Positions 9,405 to 45,089 of a stretch of DNA of 45,823 nucleotides are shown piece by piece. Origin of the DNA: Desulfovibrio sp. (GTDB taxonomy: Bacteria; Desulfobacterota; Desulfovibrionia; Desulfovibrionales; Desulfovibrionaceae). Both the position numbers and the translations under genes were made by a program. Every line of letters begins with the position of its first letter. Position 1 is the stretch's first letter. Below the pieces are notes generated by a model. That model was not told the origin of the DNA, did no database searches, and was given only the letters and a program-made list of their open reading frames with translations. The DNA is taken from contig JAISMY010000040.1 of NCBI GenBank assembly GCA_031276485.1, forward strand, positions 1 through 45,823, given 5' to 3'.

Positions 9405-11033
9405 ATGGCCATACAACAGACAGGCCTGGGTAAAGGACTGGACGGCCTGATCCGCAATACGCAGACGCAGTCTGACAGTTCCGGCCCGGTCGTCCTGCCC
9501 GCGGACGACATCAGCCCGAATCCCCGACAGCCGCGTCGCCGTTTTACCCCAGAAAGTCTGGAGGAACTCGCAGCCTCCATCCGCTCCCAGGGTCTTTTAC
9601 AGCCTCTGCTGGTCCGGCCTTTGGGGGCGGCAAAGCCCGGCAAATATGAAATCGTGGCCGGTGAACGCCGCTGGCGGGCCTGTAAAGCGGCAGGGCTTAC
9701 GGAAATCCCCGCCGTCATCCGTTCCATGACCGAACAGGAGACGCTGGTCGCCGCGCTCATTGAAAATCTCCAGCGCGAAGACCTGAATCCCCTGGAAGAA
9801 GCGCTCGGCCTTCTGGCGCTCAAAGACGAATTTTCTCTGAGCCAGGAAGAGATCGCGCTGAAATTGGGCAAAAGCCGCTCGGCCGTTGCCAACAGCCTGC
9901 GTTTGCTGACCCTGCCGGAGAACATGCGCTCCCTGCTTGCCGACGGCGCGCTCAGTGCCGGGCACGCCAGGGCACTGCTCGGCATCGACGACGCCGGGGC
10001 CAGGGAAGAACTGAAAACGCTGATTCTCGACCGGCATTTGTCGGTGCGCGAAAGCGAAGGTCTTGTCGGCCGCTGGAAAGAGAGCGGACGCTTTGCCCTC
10101 GCCGGAGCGCATGCAGCAGAAGCTGCCGGCGCATCGCCCGCCGCTGCGGGAGGAGAAACCTCTCCCTCTACGCCCGGCGACGCAGCAGACAAGGCGTCTG
10201 TTCCTGTTCCGGGCGCCAAAAAGCGCGGCGCCGGAGCGCAGAGCGCGGTACTTATGGAGATACAGACGCGTATCGAAGCTCTGTTCAGCACGCCGGTGAA
10301 AGTCGTCGGAAAAGAAGAAAAGGGACGCATCAGTTTTGTCTACAACAGCAAAGAAGAATTGGAAGCGCTGCTGCTCCGCCTGAGTGGGCGCACCTTAAAC
10401 GGGCGCGACGATCCGGCGCTGCCCGGCAACGCTGCCCCGGCGTTGCCCGGCAGGGACAATCATGCCCTGGACGGGCGTACCGACCCGGCGCTGTCCGGAG
10501 CAAAGGCCCCGGCGCTGACCGGCAAAGACGATCCGCAACTGACCGGCAGGGATGCTCTCGGCCTGAACGGCCGCGACAATCCGGCGCTGACCGGCAGAGA
10601 CAATCATGTCCTGGACGGACGCGCCGCCCCGGCGCCGGCCGGCAAAGACGATCCGCAACTGACCGGCAGGGATGACCTCGCCCTGGACGGGCGCGCCGAC
10701 CCGGCGCCGGGAGGACGCGCCGATCCGGTCCTGGAGGGGCGCGCCGCCCCGGCCCCGGCAGGCCGTGGCGTTCCCGCCCTGGAAGGAATGAAGTCCGCCG
10801 CAACGGCAGGCAGCCAAGTTTCGGCCCCGGACGGCGGCTGCAATCCGGCGCCGGCGGGCGATAGTGCGCCTCCCGGCAAGGAGCGGCAGCCACCGTCCCA
10901 GGCAGGCTCTGAAGAGGCGGTACAGGAGGCGGGAGCGGCTCCCGGCGGGCGACAACCGCCGGCCGCCGCATTCCGCCCGGCATGGGCACGCCCGCCCCGG
11001 GGGCCGGAGGGAGCGGGCGATGACCGCGCCTGA
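9405..11033 (+). CDS. parB: Chromosome-partitioning protein ParB with a long octapeptide-repeat tail
   Basis: The 542-residue product is nearly twice the usual length (about 290-310). Residues about 1-230 carry the conserved core: IRSQGLLQPLLVRP, the CTP-binding GERRWRA box (86-92), AALIENLQREDLNPLEEA, and the helix-turn-helix around LSQEEIALKLGKSRSAVANSLRLL. A proline/alanine-rich linker leads to the C-terminal dimerisation domain (about 281-328; KGRISFVYNSKEELEALLLRL). After that comes a unique tail: sixteen 8-residue units of the form GRDxPALx from residue 333, then about 80 further disordered Gly/Pro/Ala-rich residues. AAGGAG precedes ATG 9405. The stop overlaps the next gene by 14 nt. 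The core function is certain by family; the tail has no known role. Confidence 0.95.
   Translation: MAIQQTGLGKGLDGLIRNTQTQSDSSGPVVLPADDISPNPRQPRRRFTPESLEELAASIRSQGLLQPLLVRPLGAAKPGKYEIVAGERRWRACKAAGLTEIPAVIRSMTEQETLVAALIENLQREDLNPLEEALGLLALKDEFSLSQEEIALKLGKSRSAVANSLRLLTLPENMRSLLADGALSAGHARALLGIDDAGAREELKTLILDRHLSVRESEGLVGRWKESGRFALAGAHAAEAAGASPAAAGGETSPSTPGDAADKASVPVPGAKKRGAGAQSAVLMEIQTRIEALFSTPVKVVGKEEKGRISFVYNSKEELEALLLRLSGRTLNGRDDPALPGNAAPALPGRDNHALDGRTDPALSGAKAPALTGKDDPQLTGRDALGLNGRDNPALTGRDNHVLDGRAAPAPAGKDDPQLTGRDDLALDGRADPAPGGRADPVLEGRAAPAPAGRGVPALEGMKSAATAGSQVSAPDGGCNPAPAGDSAPPGKERQPPSQAGSEEAVQEAGAAPGGRQPPAAAFRPAWARPPRGPEGAGDDRA
10401..10784 (+). repeat. Array of sixteen 24-bp in-frame repeats within parB
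   Basis: Each 24-bp unit encodes eight residues beginning with glycine (GRDDPALP, GRDNHALD, GKDDPQLT, GRADPVLE and so on). The period is exact, with no indel over 384 bp, and decays into degenerate units after 10784. Units 6 and 11 are identical over all 24 bp and into the next unit, which indicates recent block duplication. The array is high in GC. Spacer-free tandem structure rules out CRISPR. It is likely length-variable between strains through slippage or recombination. Confidence 0.92.
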
Positions 11034-12102
11034 ACTTCGCGCCGGCCTGCGCGCCATGGCGGGCAGACGCGTGTTGGTCGTCGGCGACGTGATGCTCGAC
11101 CGCTATCTGAGCGGCGAAGCCTCGCGCATCTCACCGGAGGCGCCGGTGCCGGTGGTGCGGGTTGAGGAAGAACGGCTGCTGCCCGGGGGCGCAGGCAACG
11201 TGGCCGTGAACATTCGCGCTCTGGGCGGAGAGGCCGTCCTCGTCGGCGCGCGCGGCGACGATCCTGAAGGACGCGAACTGGAGCGACTTCTGGAAAACGC
11301 AGGCGTCATGACTTCGCTGACCGCTTTGCACGGCCGCCCGACGACGACCAAAACGCGCATCATCGCCCGCGGGCAGCAGATTGCGCGTATCGACCGCGAA
11401 CGGATCGCCGTTTTCAACGAAACGGAAAGCACTGCAATTCTGAAAGAAGCGACCGGCCGCGCGGCAGGCTGCCGCGCCCTTGTTCTCTCCGATTACCGCA
11501 AAGGACTGGTCGGCGCGCGCACGGCCGACGGGCTGCGCGCTCTGGCCGCCGACGCGGGGCTGCCCCTGCTGGTGGACCCCAAACCGGCGGATATCGGCAT
11601 GTACGCGGGCATGACCCTGCTTACGCCTAATGCCGAGGAAGCAGGCCGCGCCGCAAACATGCCCGTGCGGACGCCCGCGGAAATCGTCGCGGCCGGCAGA
11701 CGCATCATGGAAACCACCGGCTGTCCCAAGCTTGTGATTACCTTGGGGGAACGCGGCATGGCCGTGTTTGAAGGCCGCGGCCCTGTCTGGCGTATACCCA
11801 CCGTAGCCCGGCAGGTCTTTGACGTGACCGGCGCGGGCGACACGGTGATCGCCGCTCTGGCGCTGGGCGAGGCTGCGGCGCTGCCCCTGATCGACTCCTG
11901 CCTGCTGGCGAATTACGCGGCCGGCATCGTCGTAGGCAAGGTCGGCGCGGCTTCAGCCACGCCGGCTATGCTGCTCGAAGCCCTGGAGAGTCTGCCCCCG
12001 CCCCCGGCCGAAGCATGGGCATGTTTCAATCCGCGGCCGACTCCATCCGCCGACCGCCTCCGTCCCGGCGGACAGGAGCCGGGTGGATTGCCCCCTCCCT
12101 GA
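11020..12102 (+). CDS. hldA: D-glycero-beta-D-manno-heptose-7-phosphate kinase (RfaE domain I / HldA type)
   Basis: The 360-residue protein is a PfkB-family sugar kinase of the RfaE1 group, which phosphorylates heptose 7-phosphate at C1 for ADP-heptose and LPS inner core. Visible motifs are VVGDVMLDRYLSGEASRISPEAPVPVV at the start, the GGAGNVAVN signature, TTKTRIIARGQQIARID, and the catalytic DVTGAGDTV (anion hole plus base Asp) near residue 270. No cytidylyltransferase domain follows, so this is the single-domain form and needs a separate HldC/RfaE2. Residues after about 334 (from CFNPRP on) are encoded by a dispersed repeat, not by family sequence. ATG 11020 has GGAGG upstream and lies inside the parB end. 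Confidence 0.9.
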   Translation: MTAPELRAGLRAMAGRRVLVVGDVMLDRYLSGEASRISPEAPVPVVRVEEERLLPGGAGNVAVNIRALGGEAVLVGARGDDPEGRELERLLENAGVMTSLTALHGRPTTTKTRIIARGQQIARIDRERIAVFNETESTAILKEATGRAAGCRALVLSDYRKGLVGARTADGLRALAADAGLPLLVDPKPADIGMYAGMTLLTPNAEEAGRAANMPVRTPAEIVAAGRRIMETTGCPKLVITLGERGMAVFEGRGPVWRIPTVARQVFDVTGAGDTVIAALALGEAAALPLIDSCLLANYAAGIVVGKVGAASATPAMLLEALESLPPPPAEAWACFNPRPTPSADRLRPGGQEPGGLPPP

Positions 12103-12201
12103 AAGAAGGGGTTCCCGGGAAGGTAGGCCCGGCTCCGCCGGGCGTCAAGCAGGAATCTCCCTGAAGGGAGATGTTTCAGACCATAAGGGAAATTTTGATG
12201 A
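12022..12201 (+). repeat. Dispersed three-hairpin repeat, copy A
   Basis: About 180 bp, matched by 36299-36477 on the other strand and in part by 44782-44891. It contains three consecutive hairpins: CCCTCCCTGAAAGAAGGG (around 12094-12110), GCCCGGCTCCGCCGGGC (12127-12143) and TCTCCCTGAAGGGAGA (12156-12171). It ends in a conserved TTTCAGA-CATAA-GGAA-TTTTGATGA segment. The hldA frame runs into it and stops in the first hairpin (TGA 12100-12102). The right end offers AAGGGAA plus an ATG (12198) that opens only a 12-codon frame, overlapping the cdaA start. Confidence 0.88.
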
Positions 12202-34419: not shown

Positions 34420-34450
34420 TGCCGGTCGTAGCTCCTGATACCAAGTCGCG

Positions 34451-34525
34451 TTCAAATGAGTTTGAATGCAAGACGCCAAAGTTTTTGAAAAACAGACAAA
34501 ACTTGATTTCTCAAAAACTTGCGGG
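34451..34525. repeat. 75-bp hairpin repeat, copy 1
   Basis: Shares about 60 of 75 positions with 41765-41838. It starts with an inverted TTCAAA/TTTGAA pair, then GCAAGACGCC, and has AGTTTTTGA paired with TCAAAAACT around a 20-nt loop. It lies between the HDOD and recJ genes, both leftward. It has no coding capacity that is conserved between copies. Confidence 0.8.
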
Positions 34526-35435: not shown

Positions 35436-36302
35436 TCAGCTTTCCTCTGCGGCGGGCGGCGGGACGGCGGGCGGCGCGGCGTCCGCGGCCGGTCTTCCGT
35501 TTTCTCCGAACTCGGACCGCAGCGCCGAGACCGCCTTTTTTTTGTCTTCGGGCACCAGTCCTTTGCCGTCCAGCCAGTGCAGGAACTTGAGGGCCGGCTC
35601 CAGGCGGGGGTTGATTGCGAGGGCTTTGAACAGGAAGTCGAGGCAGCGGGCCATATCTTTTTTTTCCAGACACGCGCGCGCGAGGTTGTAGAGCAGGTTT
35701 TCGTCCTGCCCGGCCAGTTCGAGCGCGCGTTCGTAGTATTTCACGGCCTGGTCCGTCATGCCGTTTTTGCGCAGTTTGATGCCGAACTCGTTGAAAAGGT
35801 GCTTGTGTTCCTCTTCAAAGGTCGCATCCAGCTTGACCAGACGGGTAAAGACATTCTGCGCCTTTTCGTTTTCGCCGCGTTCCAGGTAGGTGATGCCCAG
35901 GCCGAAATTGGCGCGCACGTTTTCGACGTCCACCTTGAGGGCGTTGCCGTATTCCATTTCCGCGCTGTACAGCTCGTTGTTGGCCCTGTAGCGCTCGGCC
36001 CGGGCGACGACCTTGTTGATTTCACGCATTTTGGGGTACACGGACCGCATGTACAGCTCCGGTTCCGGGGCAAAATGCGAGAGGAAGGCTTCCCGCGCGA
36101 CGTTTTTTTTGGGGCCGGAGGGGATGTAATTGGAGTTGAGCGGCTGCACCTCCAGTGAACCGTCGTCTTTTTCCTCGCAGAACCAGAAGGTTTTCTGGAT
36201 GGTTTTGCGCGTCGTCGTGCCGGTTCCGACCTTCCTGACTTCCTGGGAAGAAAAGACGCCGCGAATTTTTTGCGGTTCCGCGTCACTCTGCGTTTGACTC
36301 AT
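35436..36302 (-). CDS. TPR-repeat protein conserved in character with Desulfovibrio
   Basis: The 288-residue protein has a basic N-terminal part (VFSSQEVRKVGTGTTTRKT, FWFCEEKDDGS), a PKKNVAREAFLSHFAPEPELY linker, then three to four TPR helices pairs from about residue 95 (YSAEMEYGNALKVDVENVRANFGLG; KNGMTDQAVKYYERALELAGQDENLLYNLARA) and a Pro/Ala-rich end. It likely mediates protein contacts in the cytoplasm; the partner is unknown. ATG 36302 is unusual: it and its AAAGGAA ribosome site (7 nt upstream) belong to the end of a dispersed repeat, copy B. Confidence 0.82.
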   Translation of the reverse strand: MSQTQSDAEPQKIRGVFSSQEVRKVGTGTTTRKTIQKTFWFCEEKDDGSLEVQPLNSNYIPSGPKKNVAREAFLSHFAPEPELYMRSVYPKMREINKVVARAERYRANNELYSAEMEYGNALKVDVENVRANFGLGITYLERGENEKAQNVFTRLVKLDATFEEEHKHLFNEFGIKLRKNGMTDQAVKYYERALELAGQDENLLYNLARACLEKKDMARCLDFLFKALAINPRLEPALKFLHWLDGKGLVPEDKKKAVSALRSEFGENGRPAADAAPPAVPPPAAEES

Positions 36303-36477
36303 CAAAAGTTCCTTTATGATCTGAAACCTCTCCCTTCAGGGAGATTCCCGCTTGACGCCCGGCGAAGCCGGGCCTACCTTCCCGCTAACCCCTTCCTTCA
36401 GGGAGGGGCAATCCACCCGGCTCCAATCCTCCGGGACGGCGTCGGTCGGCGGACGGCGGCGGCCGTGGATTGAAACA
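36299..36477 (-). repeat. Dispersed three-hairpin repeat, copy B
   Basis: Read on the minus strand it runs from TGTTTCAATCCACGGCCG to TTTCAGATCATAAAGGAAC and TTTTGATGA, parallel to copy A (12022-12201). It preserves CCCTCCCTGAAGGAAGGGG, GCCCGGCTTCGCCGGGC and TCTCCCTGAAGGGAGA hairpins; loop and arm differences (TCC/TTC) keep pairing. The pyrF frame enters the repeat in a different phase than hldA does in copy A and ends in the third hairpin. The downstream TPR gene starts at the last bases. Confidence 0.9.
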
Positions 36478-37271
36478 GCGAAAATTTCTTTGCCGCCGTC
36501 GCGGCGCCCGATTCCTCTTTCCATGTCCAGCAGGGCGGCGGCGGCGGCGGCGGCGGGGTCGTCCGCTCCGGTTATCGGCCTGCCCATGACCAGAAAATCC
36601 GCGCCGGCGGCAACGGCGTCCCGGGGGGTGCAGACTCTGGCCTGATCGTCGCCGCCCGCGCTGCCCGCAAAACGGATGCCGGGGCAGAGGCATAAAAAAG
36701 CGGCGCCGCGTTCCTGTTTTACGGCAGCGACCTCGCGGCCGGAACAAATCACGCCGTCCAAACCCCAAGCTTCGGCCGAGCGGGCAAGTCGGCACACCTT
36801 TTTCGTAATTTCCGGCGCATTTCCGTCCGTGCTGGTGAGTACGCTGACGCCCATGAGCAGGGCCGCGCCCCCCGCAGCGTCGCGCGCGGCGACAGCGGCG
36901 CGGCACATCGCCTCGCCGCCCGCGAGATGCAGGCTCAACAATCCCGCGCCCAGGGCGCAGCAGGCCCTGACCGCCCTGCGTACCGTATTAGGTATATCAT
37001 GAAACTTCAAATCCACAAAGACAAGACAGCCCTTGTCCGCCGCCAGGCGGACCGGCTCCGGACCGGCCGCGGCAAACAGTTCCAGCCCGATCTTCAGACC
37101 GCTGCCCACGCTTCCGGAAGGGCTGCGCAGCGCGCCGACTTTTTCGGCCAGAGCCAGAGCCGCCCCGGCGTCCGGCATATCCAGGGCCGTGAACAGGCGG
37201 GGCAGGACGCGGCCGGCTGCGCGGAGCGCTTCCGCGCAGCCGGCATGGGGTGAGGGACAGGGCGCCGTCAT
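36336..37271 (-). CDS. pyrF: Orotidine-5'-phosphate decarboxylase with a repeat-encoded tail
   Basis: The 311-residue product decarboxylates OMP to UMP. Catalytic core: FTALDMPDAG, GLKIGLELF, VFVDLKFHDIPNTV (Asp-Lys-Asp), HLAGGEAM, MGVSVLTSTDG, GLDGVICSGRE, CPGIRFAG, DDQARVCTPRDAVAAGADFLVMGRPITGADDP. The family normally ends soon after this (about 240 residues). The last roughly 45 residues (from about FAVSIHGRRRPPT) are encoded by dispersed repeat copy B. ATG 37271 follows GGGGAGT; upstream frame is rejected. gmk precedes by 31 nt. Confidence 0.92.
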   Translation of the reverse strand: MTAPCPSPHAGCAEALRAAGRVLPRLFTALDMPDAGAALALAEKVGALRSPSGSVGSGLKIGLELFAAAGPEPVRLAADKGCLVFVDLKFHDIPNTVRRAVRACCALGAGLLSLHLAGGEAMCRAAVAARDAAGGAALLMGVSVLTSTDGNAPEITKKVCRLARSAEAWGLDGVICSGREVAAVKQERGAAFLCLCPGIRFAGSAGGDDQARVCTPRDAVAAGADFLVMGRPITGADDPAAAAAAALLDMERGIGRRDGGKEIFAVSIHGRRRPPTDAVPEDWSRVDCPSLKEGVSGKVGPASPGVKRESP

Positions 37272-37302
37272 ACTCCCCACGCGGCTGGGGGGCGGGGCGG
37301 CG

Positions 37303-37929
37303 TCACAATCCCCACTCGGCCGCCGGTCCGGCCTGAAACTGCGGACACAGGGAGGGGGAAAGGGTGGAGGCGACATACACCGCGCGCAGTTCCTGCCATG
37401 CCTGTTCCAGCTCGTCGTTGACTATCCAGAAATCGAACCAGCGGGCCTGGGCCGTTTCGCGGGCGGCCGTCGCCATGCGCAGGGCCAGACCTTCTTCGCT
37501 CTCCGTGCCTCTGGCGCGCAGGCGGCGCTCCAGTTCCGCGCGCGAGGGCGGGAACAGGAAGACAAGACGCGCGGCGGGCAGGCAACGCCGAATCTGCGCC
37601 GCGCCCTGCACGTCTATGTCGAAAAGCGCGTCCTTGCCCTCGGCCGGCAGATTCCAGGCGGCCGCCAGGGGCGTGCCGTAAAAGCTGCCGTGTACCTGCG
37701 CCCATTCGGCGAAAAAGCCCGCTTCGCGTTTCTGCAGAAACTCTTCCCTGCTCAGGAACACATAGTCCCTGCCGTTGACTTCTCCTGCCCTCGGGGGGCG
37801 CGTGGTGCAGGAAACGGAGAGGACGATATTCGGGAACTCCTGCAGCAGGCGCCGGCACAGGGTGGTCTTACCGGTGCCCGAAGGGGCGCAGATGACGACG
37901 GAGATGCCCGTCCGCCTGCAGGCGTTCAT
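37303..37929 (-). CDS. gmk: Guanylate kinase
   Basis: The 208-residue enzyme phosphorylates GMP to GDP. P-loop [10 protein letters not shown] at about 15-24; GMP-binding [34 protein letters not shown]; and [13 protein letters not shown], all conserved. Late segment [15 protein letters not shown] is typical. Start ATG overlaps the remA stop (ATGA), so it is coupled to remA; the yicC-remA-gmk order is a common bacterial arrangement. Confidence 0.96.
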
Positions 37930-39265: not shown

Positions 39266-40381
39266 TCAGAGCCGCGCCGCCCGTTGCAGAAGCAGAAAAT
39301 CCGCCGCGCACAGCGCGGCCATCGCCCTCAGGACAGGAACAATGCGCGGCAGAGCGGAAATATCATGCCGGCCGCCGATGCGCAATTCCGTCATCTCCCC
39401 TTGCAGGTTCAGGGTTCGCTGCGTTTTAGCCGTTGAGGCAATCGGTTTGACGCTTGCCGTGACCAGCACGGGCGCTCCGCTGCTCAGTCCGCCCAGGATG
39501 CCGCCGGCGTGGTTGGAAGCAAAGGCGTACGGCGCGCCGCCGGGCAGCAGGCAGCGGGCGTCGCCGGCAGGGCCGGCCGGGACCAGCGGATCGTTGTGTT
39601 CGCTGCCTTTCATCTTTGCCGCCGCGCACCCGGAGCCGATTTCCACGCCCTTGACCGCGCCTACGCCCATGAAGGCATAAGCCAGACGCGCGTCCAGCTT
39701 GTCGAAGACGGGTTCGCCGAGACCGGGAGGCAGCCCGTGAATCTCAACCAGCACCTTGCCGCCCAGGCTGTCGCCTTCGCGCGCCGCCGCCCGCGCCGCC
39801 TCTTCCCAGCGCAGGCAACTGTCCGCATCGGGACAGAACCAGGGCCGGGAACGGGCGCCGAAGGGATCTTCGGGGACGGCGGCGATGCCCGCGAATTCCA
39901 GGATGCAGGCCGCGATGCGGATGCCGCGCGCGTGCAGGAATTTTTCGGCGATTGCGCCGCCGGCGACCCGGCACAGGGTTTCGCGGGCCGAGGCGCGTCC
40001 GCCGCCGCGGTGGTCGCTCAGGCCGTGTTTCAAAAGCAGGCCGAGGTCGGCGTGGCCGGGACGGGGGATATCGGCCAGGGCCTCGTAATCTCCCGGCCGC
40101 TGATCCGTGTTTTCCACGTAAAATGCTATGGGCGCGCCCGTGCTTTGGCCGTCGAACAGGCCGGAGAGCAGGCGCACCCTGTCCGCTTCGCGTCTGGCGG
40201 TGGAGGCCGCCCCGCCCCGGCCGTCCCGGCCGGGGCGGCGTTCGTCCAGGGCCCGCTGCAGGTCGTCATCCGAGAGTTTCAGGCCCGCAGGACAGCCGTC
40301 CACCACTCCGCCCAGGCCGGGGCCGTGCGATTCCCCGAAGGTAGTCAGCCGGAACAGGCGTCCGAAAGTGTTGCCGTTCAT
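39266..40381 (-). CDS. aroC: Chorismate synthase
   Basis: The 371-residue enzyme converts EPSP to chorismate using reduced FMN. Motifs: RLTTFGESHGPGLGGVVDGCPAG (His), RRPGRDGRGG, SGLFDGQSTGAPIAF, RPGHADLGLLLKHGLSDHRGGGRASARET, SNHAGGILGGLSSGAP and a GRHDISALPRIVPV segment. ATG 40381 overlaps the stop of the upstream fusion gene (ATGA), so shikimate kinase and chorismate synthase are translationally coupled; both belong to the same pathway. Confidence 0.96.
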   Translation of the reverse strand: MNGNTFGRLFRLTTFGESHGPGLGGVVDGCPAGLKLSDDDLQRALDERRPGRDGRGGAASTARREADRVRLLSGLFDGQSTGAPIAFYVENTDQRPGDYEALADIPRPGHADLGLLLKHGLSDHRGGGRASARETLCRVAGGAIAEKFLHARGIRIAACILEFAGIAAVPEDPFGARSRPWFCPDADSCLRWEEAARAAAREGDSLGGKVLVEIHGLPPGLGEPVFDKLDARLAYAFMGVGAVKGVEIGSGCAAAKMKGSEHNDPLVPAGPAGDARCLLPGGAPYAFASNHAGGILGGLSSGAPVLVTASVKPIASTAKTQRTLNLQGEMTELRIGGRHDISALPRIVPVLRAMAALCAADFLLLQRAARL

Positions 40382-41739
40382 GGCCCGAAAGCCTCTCTCT
40401 TCAGGATGCGCGCCGCCGCGAAAGCCGTTTGCCGCGCCGGCTGCGCGGCGTCGAGAACATAATGGGCGCATTCCAGGTACAGCGCTTCGCGCCCGGCCAT
40501 AACGGCCGCCGTCTCTTCCAGCGGATCGGCCCCCGTCAGCGAGGGACGGCCTGAAAAGTTTCCGGCGTCGCGCATGCGCTCATACAGGGTTTGCGCGGGC
40601 GCGGCAAGATAGAAGACAAGGCCCGACGCGCGCATCAGGGCGCGGTTTTCTTCCGCGAGAATGACGCCCCCGCCTCCGGCTATGACGCCGCCCGCTTCGA
40701 CGGCGCGGGCCAGGGCGCGCGACTCGCGCCCGCGAAAGCCCGGCCAGCCTTCCCGACTCACGATCTCCGCGGCATTGCTGCCGGTCTCGTCTTCGATCAT
40801 GCGGTCCGTGTCGTGCAAGGGCAAATTCAGGATCCGCGCCAGGATAACGCCGACCGTGCTTTTCCCGGAACAGCGTCCGCCGATGAGAAAGAGGCAGCGC
40901 GGAAGCAACCGGCGCCCGGCGCCGGATGCGGCCTGGGCCGCGGAATTGCGGGCTTCCTTGCGGAGCGGGCGGCGCCCGGCGGCGCAGGCCGGGCCGCAGA
41001 TGTTCCGGGTCGCGGCCTGCCGCGCGGGCAGCGGGGGGGCCGGGGCGGCCCGTTCTATGCCCCGCGCCCAGGAACCCCGGCGCGTGGGCAGGCTGAGAGC
41101 GGCGGCCAGGCGGTCCGTAAATTCCGCCCTGGGCACTTCTTTGGCCCCGAAGCGCAGCATGTGCGGCGTCGTCTGCTGGCAGTCCACCAGGCTGAAGCCG
41201 TTTTTCGCCAGTTCGCCGACCAGAAAAACAAAGGCGGCCCTGGAGGCGCCGGATTCGCGGTAAAACATGGATTCTCCGAAAAAGGCCCCGCCCAGGGCCA
41301 GGCCGTACAGCCCGCCCGCCAGGCGTCCTTCCCGCCGGGCCTCGACGGAATGGGCAAAGCCGAGCCGGTGCATGCGCTCGTAAGCGGCGATCATTTCCGG
41401 CGTGAGCCACGTGTCCGGCTGTCCCCGGCGCGGCCCGGCGCAGGCTCTGATGACCTCGGCAAAGGCCGTGTCGAAGCGGCAGTCGAACGGCGCGTCCCGC
41501 AACGCGCGTTTCAATGAACGGGGCAGGCGGAATTCTTCAGGCAGGAGTATGCAGCGGGGGTCGGGCGCCCACCAGAGCGGCGCGCTCCCCGCGCTGTACC
41601 AGGGAAAGATGCCGCGGCTGTACGCTTCCAGCAGGCGGGGCGGCGAAAGGTCGCCGCCCGCGGCCAGCAATCCGTCCGGCCCCGCCGTACAGGGGTCGGG
41701 GAACGCCGCGTTGTCGGCCTCCGGAAGGTAAACGGGCAC
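40378..41739 (-). CDS. Fusion of leucyl/phenylalanyl-tRNA-protein transferase (Aat) and shikimate kinase (AroK)
   Basis: One uninterrupted frame of 453 codons joins two enzymes. Residues about 1-215 are Aat, the N-end-rule aminoacyl-transferase: FPDP, GLLAAGGDLSPPRLLEAYSRGIFPWYS, PLWWAPDPRC, TWLTPEMIAAYERMHRLGFAHSVE, GGLYGLALGGAFFGESMFY, LVDCQQTTPHMLRFGAKEVPR. A 50-60 residue Ala/Arg/Pro linker follows. Residues about 280-453 are shikimate kinase: LFLIGGRCSGKSTVG (P-loop), LHDTDRMIE, GWPGFRGRES, GGGGVIL, NFSGRPSLTG lid. Both active sites look intact. GTG 41739 has AGGAG 7 nt upstream; the in-frame TTG at 41769 lies in a repeat. aroC overlaps downstream. Because the functions are unrelated, the fusion may be an accident of adjacency. 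Confidence 0.9.
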   Translation of the reverse strand: MPVYLPEADNAAFPDPCTAGPDGLLAAGGDLSPPRLLEAYSRGIFPWYSAGSAPLWWAPDPRCILLPEEFRLPRSLKRALRDAPFDCRFDTAFAEVIRACAGPRRGQPDTWLTPEMIAAYERMHRLGFAHSVEARREGRLAGGLYGLALGGAFFGESMFYRESGASRAAFVFLVGELAKNGFSLVDCQQTTPHMLRFGAKEVPRAEFTDRLAAALSLPTRRGSWARGIERAAPAPPLPARQAATRNICGPACAAGRRPLRKEARNSAAQAASGAGRRLLPRCLFLIGGRCSGKSTVGVILARILNLPLHDTDRMIEDETGSNAAEIVSREGWPGFRGRESRALARAVEAGGVIAGGGGVILAEENRALMRASGLVFYLAAPAQTLYERMRDAGNFSGRPSLTGADPLEETAAVMAGREALYLECAHYVLDAAQPARQTAFAAARILKREAFGP

Positions 41740-41764
41740 GGAGCGCTCCTCATGCCGAATTGCA

Positions 41765-41838
41765 TTCAAATTCTTTTGAATGCAAGACGCCGAAGTTTTT
41801 GAAAAACAGGCAAAGCCTGATTCCCCGAAAACTTGCGC
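41765..41838. repeat. 75-bp hairpin repeat, copy 2
   Basis: Homologue of 34451-34525. The start shows ATTCAAA/TTTGAAT; the middle has a perfect CAGGC-AAA-GCCTG hairpin inside AAGTTTT/AAAACTT arms. Base changes from copy 1 create the inner stem. It lies 4 bp upstream of the asd stop and 25 bp from the Aat start, between leftward genes, the same context as copy 1. Confidence 0.8.
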
Positions 41839-44762: not shown

Positions 44763-45089
44763 TCAAACTCGCTGCACTCGCGTTTCAATCCGCAGCCGGT
44801 GCCGTCCGCCGAAAGACGCAGGCCCGGCGGACAGCGCCGGGCGTATTGCCCCCTCCCTGAAGGAAGGAGCTGCCGGGACGGCAGGCCCGGCGAGCCGATT
44901 CTTGGCTGTATCTGCATCTATCCGCTTTTTCCCGGTCAACACGCGGAAAAGTTCTCCTAAACATTGCGCCGGAATGACAACGGCGGTAATCGGGAGTTTT
45001 TGTAAAAGCCGCACAGATGTCAGTCTCCGTTCTTCGTCCCCCACGCCTTCGGCATAGGCCAAGATGTTGGTATCCAAGGCTATTCTCAT
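44763..45089 (-). pseudogene. VapC-like PIN-domain toxin, truncated by repeat copy C
   Basis: The frame starts as a PIN toxin: MRIALDTNILAYAEGVGD (first catalytic Asp), LLQKLPITAVVIPAQCLGELFRVLTGKKRI (second acidic residue). Native sequence ends after about 66 codons (44892). The rest of the frame, AGPAVPAAPSFREG..., is repeat copy C read in reverse. A normal PIN toxin has about 130 residues, with one or two further acidic residues near 95-115, all missing. It is therefore probably inactive. Start overlaps the antitoxin stop by 1 nt (TAATG). Name by family only. Confidence 0.82.
44782..44891 (+). repeat. Dispersed three-hairpin repeat, partial copy C
   Basis: Starts CGTTTCAATCCGCAGCC and matches copy A up to AGGCCCGGC, the left arm of the second hairpin, where it stops abruptly (44891) against toxin-gene sequence. 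It keeps CCCTCCCTGAAGGAAGG but has lost the third hairpin and the ribosome-site end. Unlike copies A and B it faces against the direction of the surrounding genes. Confidence 0.85.

Follow-up and report, generated by a model that had tools for sequence, protein, structure and literature searches.

An in-frame fusion of the aat and shikimate kinase genes in a Desulfovibrio genome

Introduction

The closest described counterparts of the two enzymes treated here are the leucyl/phenylalanyl-tRNA–protein transferase (Aat) of Escherichia coli, for which structures are available (PDB 2cxa, 2z3k, and 2dps), and shikimate kinase (SK) II, AroL (PDB 1shk and 1e6c). Price et al. reported an SK II-like kinase of Desulfovibrio, DvMF_1410, as apparently essential, and the homoserine kinase of Desulfovibrio has been established genetically (PMC5764234). 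SK-fold domains joined to another protein are also on record, in AROM, in SK–AroB (NF010556 and NF010627), and in BzdR-type regulators (PMC3602430). The fusion of neighboring genes is an ordinary and well-known kind of event.

Here, we analyzed a stretch of 45,823 nucleotides (the window), which is contig C71 of a Desulfovibrio assembly (G000) of 2.23 Mb in 116 contigs that is 86.9% complete. Its closest named relatives are Desulfovibrio metagenome-assembled genomes with the isolate codes Nc350, Kf353, and Nm470, which appear to come from termite-gut samples, since these codes resemble the names used in published sets of termite metagenomes.

Results

On the minus strand of the window, a single frame is open over positions 40378-41769. 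Because a GAGGAG Shine-Dalgarno sequence lies a few bases upstream, GTG 41739 is the likeliest start of the fused gene, giving an open reading frame at 40378-41739 that ends in TGA and encodes a protein of 453 amino acids and 48.7 kDa. Pfam Leu_Phe_trans (227 bits) and SKI (126 bits) were matched in this same frame. The Aat domain, together with its N-terminal end, occupies positions 41044-41739 (minus strand) and is full length, with 227.4 bits for PF03588 (E value of 1e-67; cutoff, 22.7) and 184.4 bits for TIGR00667 (cutoff, 143.55). The AroL-type SK domain, stop included, occupies positions 40378-40899 (minus strand) and is likewise full length, with 126.4 bits for PF01202 (E value of 1.4e-36; cutoff, 22.1) and 176.8 bits for NF002988 (cutoff, 161). 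When aligned to the E. coli structure 2z3k, the Aat half retains GESMF and DCQ. We take these to be the active-site motifs, with roles known from the E. coli enzyme. In the SK half, Walker A, DTD, FRxRE, GGG, the lid arginine, and the REALY arginine are all intact and align to 1shk. The first-pass annotation had described Aat and SK in a single frame with intact active-site motifs in both halves, and the Pfam and NCBIfam matches and these alignments bear it out on both counts. The fused frame with two complete domains is thus confirmed as real, and the sharing of one frame by these two domains far exceeds chance.

The next gene, aroC (chorismate synthase; PF01264, E value of 6.8e-118), lies at 39266-40381 on the same strand. 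Read from the sequence, the TGA stop of the fusion overlaps the aroC ATG as ATGA at position 40378. The translational coupling to aroC claimed earlier is therefore right as to the overlap of stop and start, while the coupling itself is a proposal.

The two domains are joined by a linker at positions 40900-41043 (minus strand; 144 nucleotides). The low-complexity linker of about 55 residues noted at first is present, with 83% GC, but measures 48 residues between the conserved blocks. It is open in all six frames and hypervariable, being conserved among relatives in neither length nor sequence. Since 75% of shuffles of this 83% GC stretch were also open in frame, its openness is no sign of selection; six-frame openness, shuffles, and comparison with relatives together gave no sign of selection on the linker. 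Within it is a C7 run, and past this run the linker is still in the aat frame of a relative, G013, with PARQxAT and RRPLR shared in the alignment. A mobile repeat was considered as the source of the linker and rejected. Elsewhere in the genome, there were just two short, weak matches to it, and so the linker belongs to neither dispersed repeat family described below.

An AlphaFold2 model, built on a 20-sequence alignment in which SKs from separate genes were 61 to 67% identical to the window protein, consisted of two confident domains with a pTM of 0.52. Between residues 236 and 277, almost every position had a pLDDT below 50. A flexible tether would give such low values, which by themselves are no proof of disorder.

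For comparison at the genus level, 15 genomes were searched for both domains, and aat and SK were fused in 2 of them, G000 and G007. In G007 (locus L045), a second species of the genus, both domains are in frame without a stop and show 85 to 86% identity by domain. Its linker is much shorter than that of G000 and contains an internal GTG (GTG AAC ACG CGT TGT). In G013, the GTG shared with G007 is the true SK start, and with the aat stop, which is not in the same frame, it forms a GTGA overlap; the C-terminal extension of the G013 aat product matches parts of the G000 linker. In G008, the aat TGA is followed by 84 nucleotides and then by an SK start with a good Shine-Dalgarno sequence. The aat, SK, and aroC genes are neighboring but separate in G005, G006, and G014, and in most other genomes of the genus, the two domains were on different contigs or one domain alone was found. 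The domain order that the first-pass annotation proposed to look for in related genomes was therefore recovered as a fusion in G007, whereas most relatives have separate genes. Separate genes in most relatives date the fusion and do not refute it in G000. Pairwise dN/dS was 0.13 to 0.25 for aat and 0.15 to 0.26 for SK, so that both domains are constrained, as expected for two enzymes still working.

Downstream of SK in G008 (L046), the sequence reads as a copper-type P-type ATPase and not as aroC, the link to aroC being lost there. Other Aat fusions were also sought in the family, where seven Aat matches lay in long stop-to-stop frames (e.g., 1,046 amino acids in G057 and 550 in G056). By inspection, these were rejected as out-of-frame high-GC readthrough, the extra length coming, for example, from readthrough of an upstream ClpA-like gene. 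The survey for Aat–SK outside the genus was limited to the best family matches listed.

G000 has one Aat match and one ClpS, and the shikimate-pathway enzymes that were sought were found, among them DHQ synthase II, proteins of the EPSP synthase family, and AroC. Two SKI-family proteins were found, the SK domain of the fusion and a shikimate-kinase-like homoserine kinase on contig C56 (L003:1429-1971). The latter scored 208.3 bits for NF040667, the Desulfovibrio homoserine kinase family (cutoff, 197 bits); the fusion, at 64 bits, falls below this cutoff and is not placed in that family. Because the second SKI protein scores as a homoserine kinase, no shikimate kinase other than the fused SK domain was found in the assembly, which at 87% completeness could lack another. 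The L003 locus also holds an aroE-like frame beside the homoserine kinase.

Upstream of the fusion, between asd and aat, lies a dispersed hairpin repeat of about 93 nucleotides (41745-41837, minus strand), with a further copy in the window at 34431-34523. It has an RNA fold z-score of −3.0 and is present in G000 in at least 40 copies at 83% identity or more (the best 40 of 90 candidates scored). Since the asd–aat gap is merely 10 to 12 nucleotides in G007, G013, and G008, with the repeat absent, the repeat must have arrived at this site; its end contributes part of the Shine-Dalgarno sequence of the fused gene. In the genome comparison, copies were numerous in G006 and G009 and few in G008, G010, and G014, whereas none were found in G007 or G013.

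A second dispersed repeat, of about 180 nucleotides, is found in the window at 12022-12201, 36299-36477, and 44782-44891 and in G000 at about 40 places or more (the best 40 of 130 candidates scored). Judged by its coordinates, the 36299-36477 copy encodes the C terminus and the stop codon of the open reading frame at 36336-37376. The copy at 44782-44891 lies within a short open reading frame (44763-45089), apparently that of a PIN-domain protein interrupted by the repeat. In addition, seven overlapping copies of a 120-nucleotide unit, spaced by 24 to 48 nucleotides, lie at 10410-10745 inside a long open frame and probably encode a short amino acid repeat in that frame.

Discussion

Taken together, we consider it very probable that this locus is a real, recent, and probably incidental fusion of adjoining genes in a conserved aat–SK(–aroC) cluster, with the domains working separately and probably without a new activity. 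From the separate, overlapping, and fused states in relatives, we infer that the genus has long had the aat–SK pair and that the fusion is young. Incidental loss of the boundary in an aat–SK operon had been one of the options raised in the first-pass annotation, and it is the best supported of them. Indels and substitutions at the junction would have removed the aat stop and put both genes in one frame, and ribosomes starting at the aat GTG would then make one protein of 48.7 kDa. In this protein, Aat and SK may each fold and act on their own, joined by a flexible tether that proteases could possibly cleave. As predicted from sequence, Aat would attach Leu or Phe to N-terminal Lys or Arg residues as a tag for ClpS/ClpAP, and SK would convert shikimate to shikimate-3-phosphate. 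The TGA/ATG overlap may couple translation of aroC to that of the fusion.

How often the fusion arose can be approached through the junctions. In G007, most of the G013-type linker is missing, and the SK frame is entered upstream of the repeated CCGCTCCGCA motif. In G000, the G013 aat frame is kept through this motif and differs after it in a gappy alignment. This alignment, gappy as it is, suggests that G000 and G007 reached the fused frame by two routes. Tree support for G000, G007, and G013 is weak (62 to 82% in the combined and aat trees and 39% in the SK tree), and the aroC tree pairs G007 with G013. Two histories are possible, a single fusion that was later split in G013 or two fusions that arose independently.

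A sequencing or assembly error, also raised at first, would mean that two genes overlapping in the manner of the G013 GTGA look fused because of a small indel within the GC-rich linker. The 83% GC of the linker, its C7 run, and the out-of-frame state of G013 at the same junction are what such an error would draw on. However, G007 was assembled separately and is also fused, through a different linker, and the frame change cannot be placed at the C7 run, past which the G013 aat frame persists. The frames of G000 and G013 part beyond that run, at a place without a long homopolymer. Because G007 is fused in an assembly of its own and the aat frame is conserved beyond the run, we consider such an error very unlikely. 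Still further from what we expect is a selected bifunctional enzyme, with a regulatory or metabolic role for the tether between Aat and SK. The presence of the fusion in two species and the constraint on both domains would fit such a role, but the linker is unconserved in length and sequence, the closest relatives keep the genes separate, Aat and SK have no common substrate, and the predicted model is without confident packing of one domain on the other (pTM, 0.52). Selection for the fusion would call for clade-wide conservation of fusion and linker, and with 2 of 15 genomes fused and their linkers different, this is not what was found. That a small Desulfovibrio lineage has fixed a bifunctional Aat–SK enzyme, perhaps on two occasions, with the tether linking N-degron tagging to aromatic amino acid synthesis or setting the ratio of the two, is accordingly a conjecture to which we give almost no weight.

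The alternative that much SK is made apart from Aat, by internal initiation or by proteolysis of the linker, so that the cell mainly uses two proteins, concerns what becomes of the fused frame. A TTG at 40908-40906 (positions 40906-40908, minus strand) sits where relatives have the SK start codon, aligning with the SK start (GTG) in G013 and with the GTG inside the fused frame of G007, and the alignment to the solved AroL begins a few residues further downstream. Judging from this alignment, the ancestral SK start survives as the internal TTG. The linker, unstructured in the predicted model, would also suit a protein that comes apart. Against this, TTG codons initiate weakly, this one lacks a Shine-Dalgarno sequence (−3.0 kcal/mol versus −7.4 kcal/mol at the separate SK of G008), no stop is left nearby to drive coupled reinitiation, and ribosomes coming from aat must still read through into SK. 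Some free SK could be made from the internal TTG, and the main product should be the fusion; we therefore regard a cell that relies mainly on two proteins as possible but doubtful.

The preferred reading, a recent fusion of neighbors, makes this locus a snapshot of a fusion forming, since the same two genes are separate, overlapping by four bases, or fused in close species, and the junction is the only fast-changing part across these states. It also carries a caution. Domains that co-occur in one protein need not be functionally linked, especially in high-GC genomes, because junctions there stay open through composition alone. For the biology of Aat and SK themselves, the fusion is of minor interest.

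Compared with known systems, the Aat half resembles E. coli Aat over the whole domain, including GESMF and DCQ (E value of 2.8e-57), but the E. coli enzyme is single-domain, whereas the Aat here carries a linker and SK at its C terminus. The SK half has all the substrate and ATP motifs of AroL and DvMF_1410 and scores above the NF002988 cutoff; unlike these kinases, it is without its own Shine-Dalgarno-bearing start and forms the C-terminal half of a fusion with Aat. AROM, SK–AroB, and BzdR-type regulators share with it an SK-fold domain joined to another protein. Their partners are pathway or regulatory proteins, whereas Aat is an unrelated protein-modifying enzyme. A partial literature search that included titles and abstracts on SK fusions did not find an Aat–SK pairing, which appears to be undescribed. 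The initial remark that this was not a known bifunctional enzyme thus agrees with the search as to the pairing, while nothing supports a selected bifunctional enzyme. The locus also resembles the fusion of operon genes by stop loss, in that the adjacent, overlapping (GTGA), and fused states all occur in close relatives, and the only difference is the identity of the gene pair.
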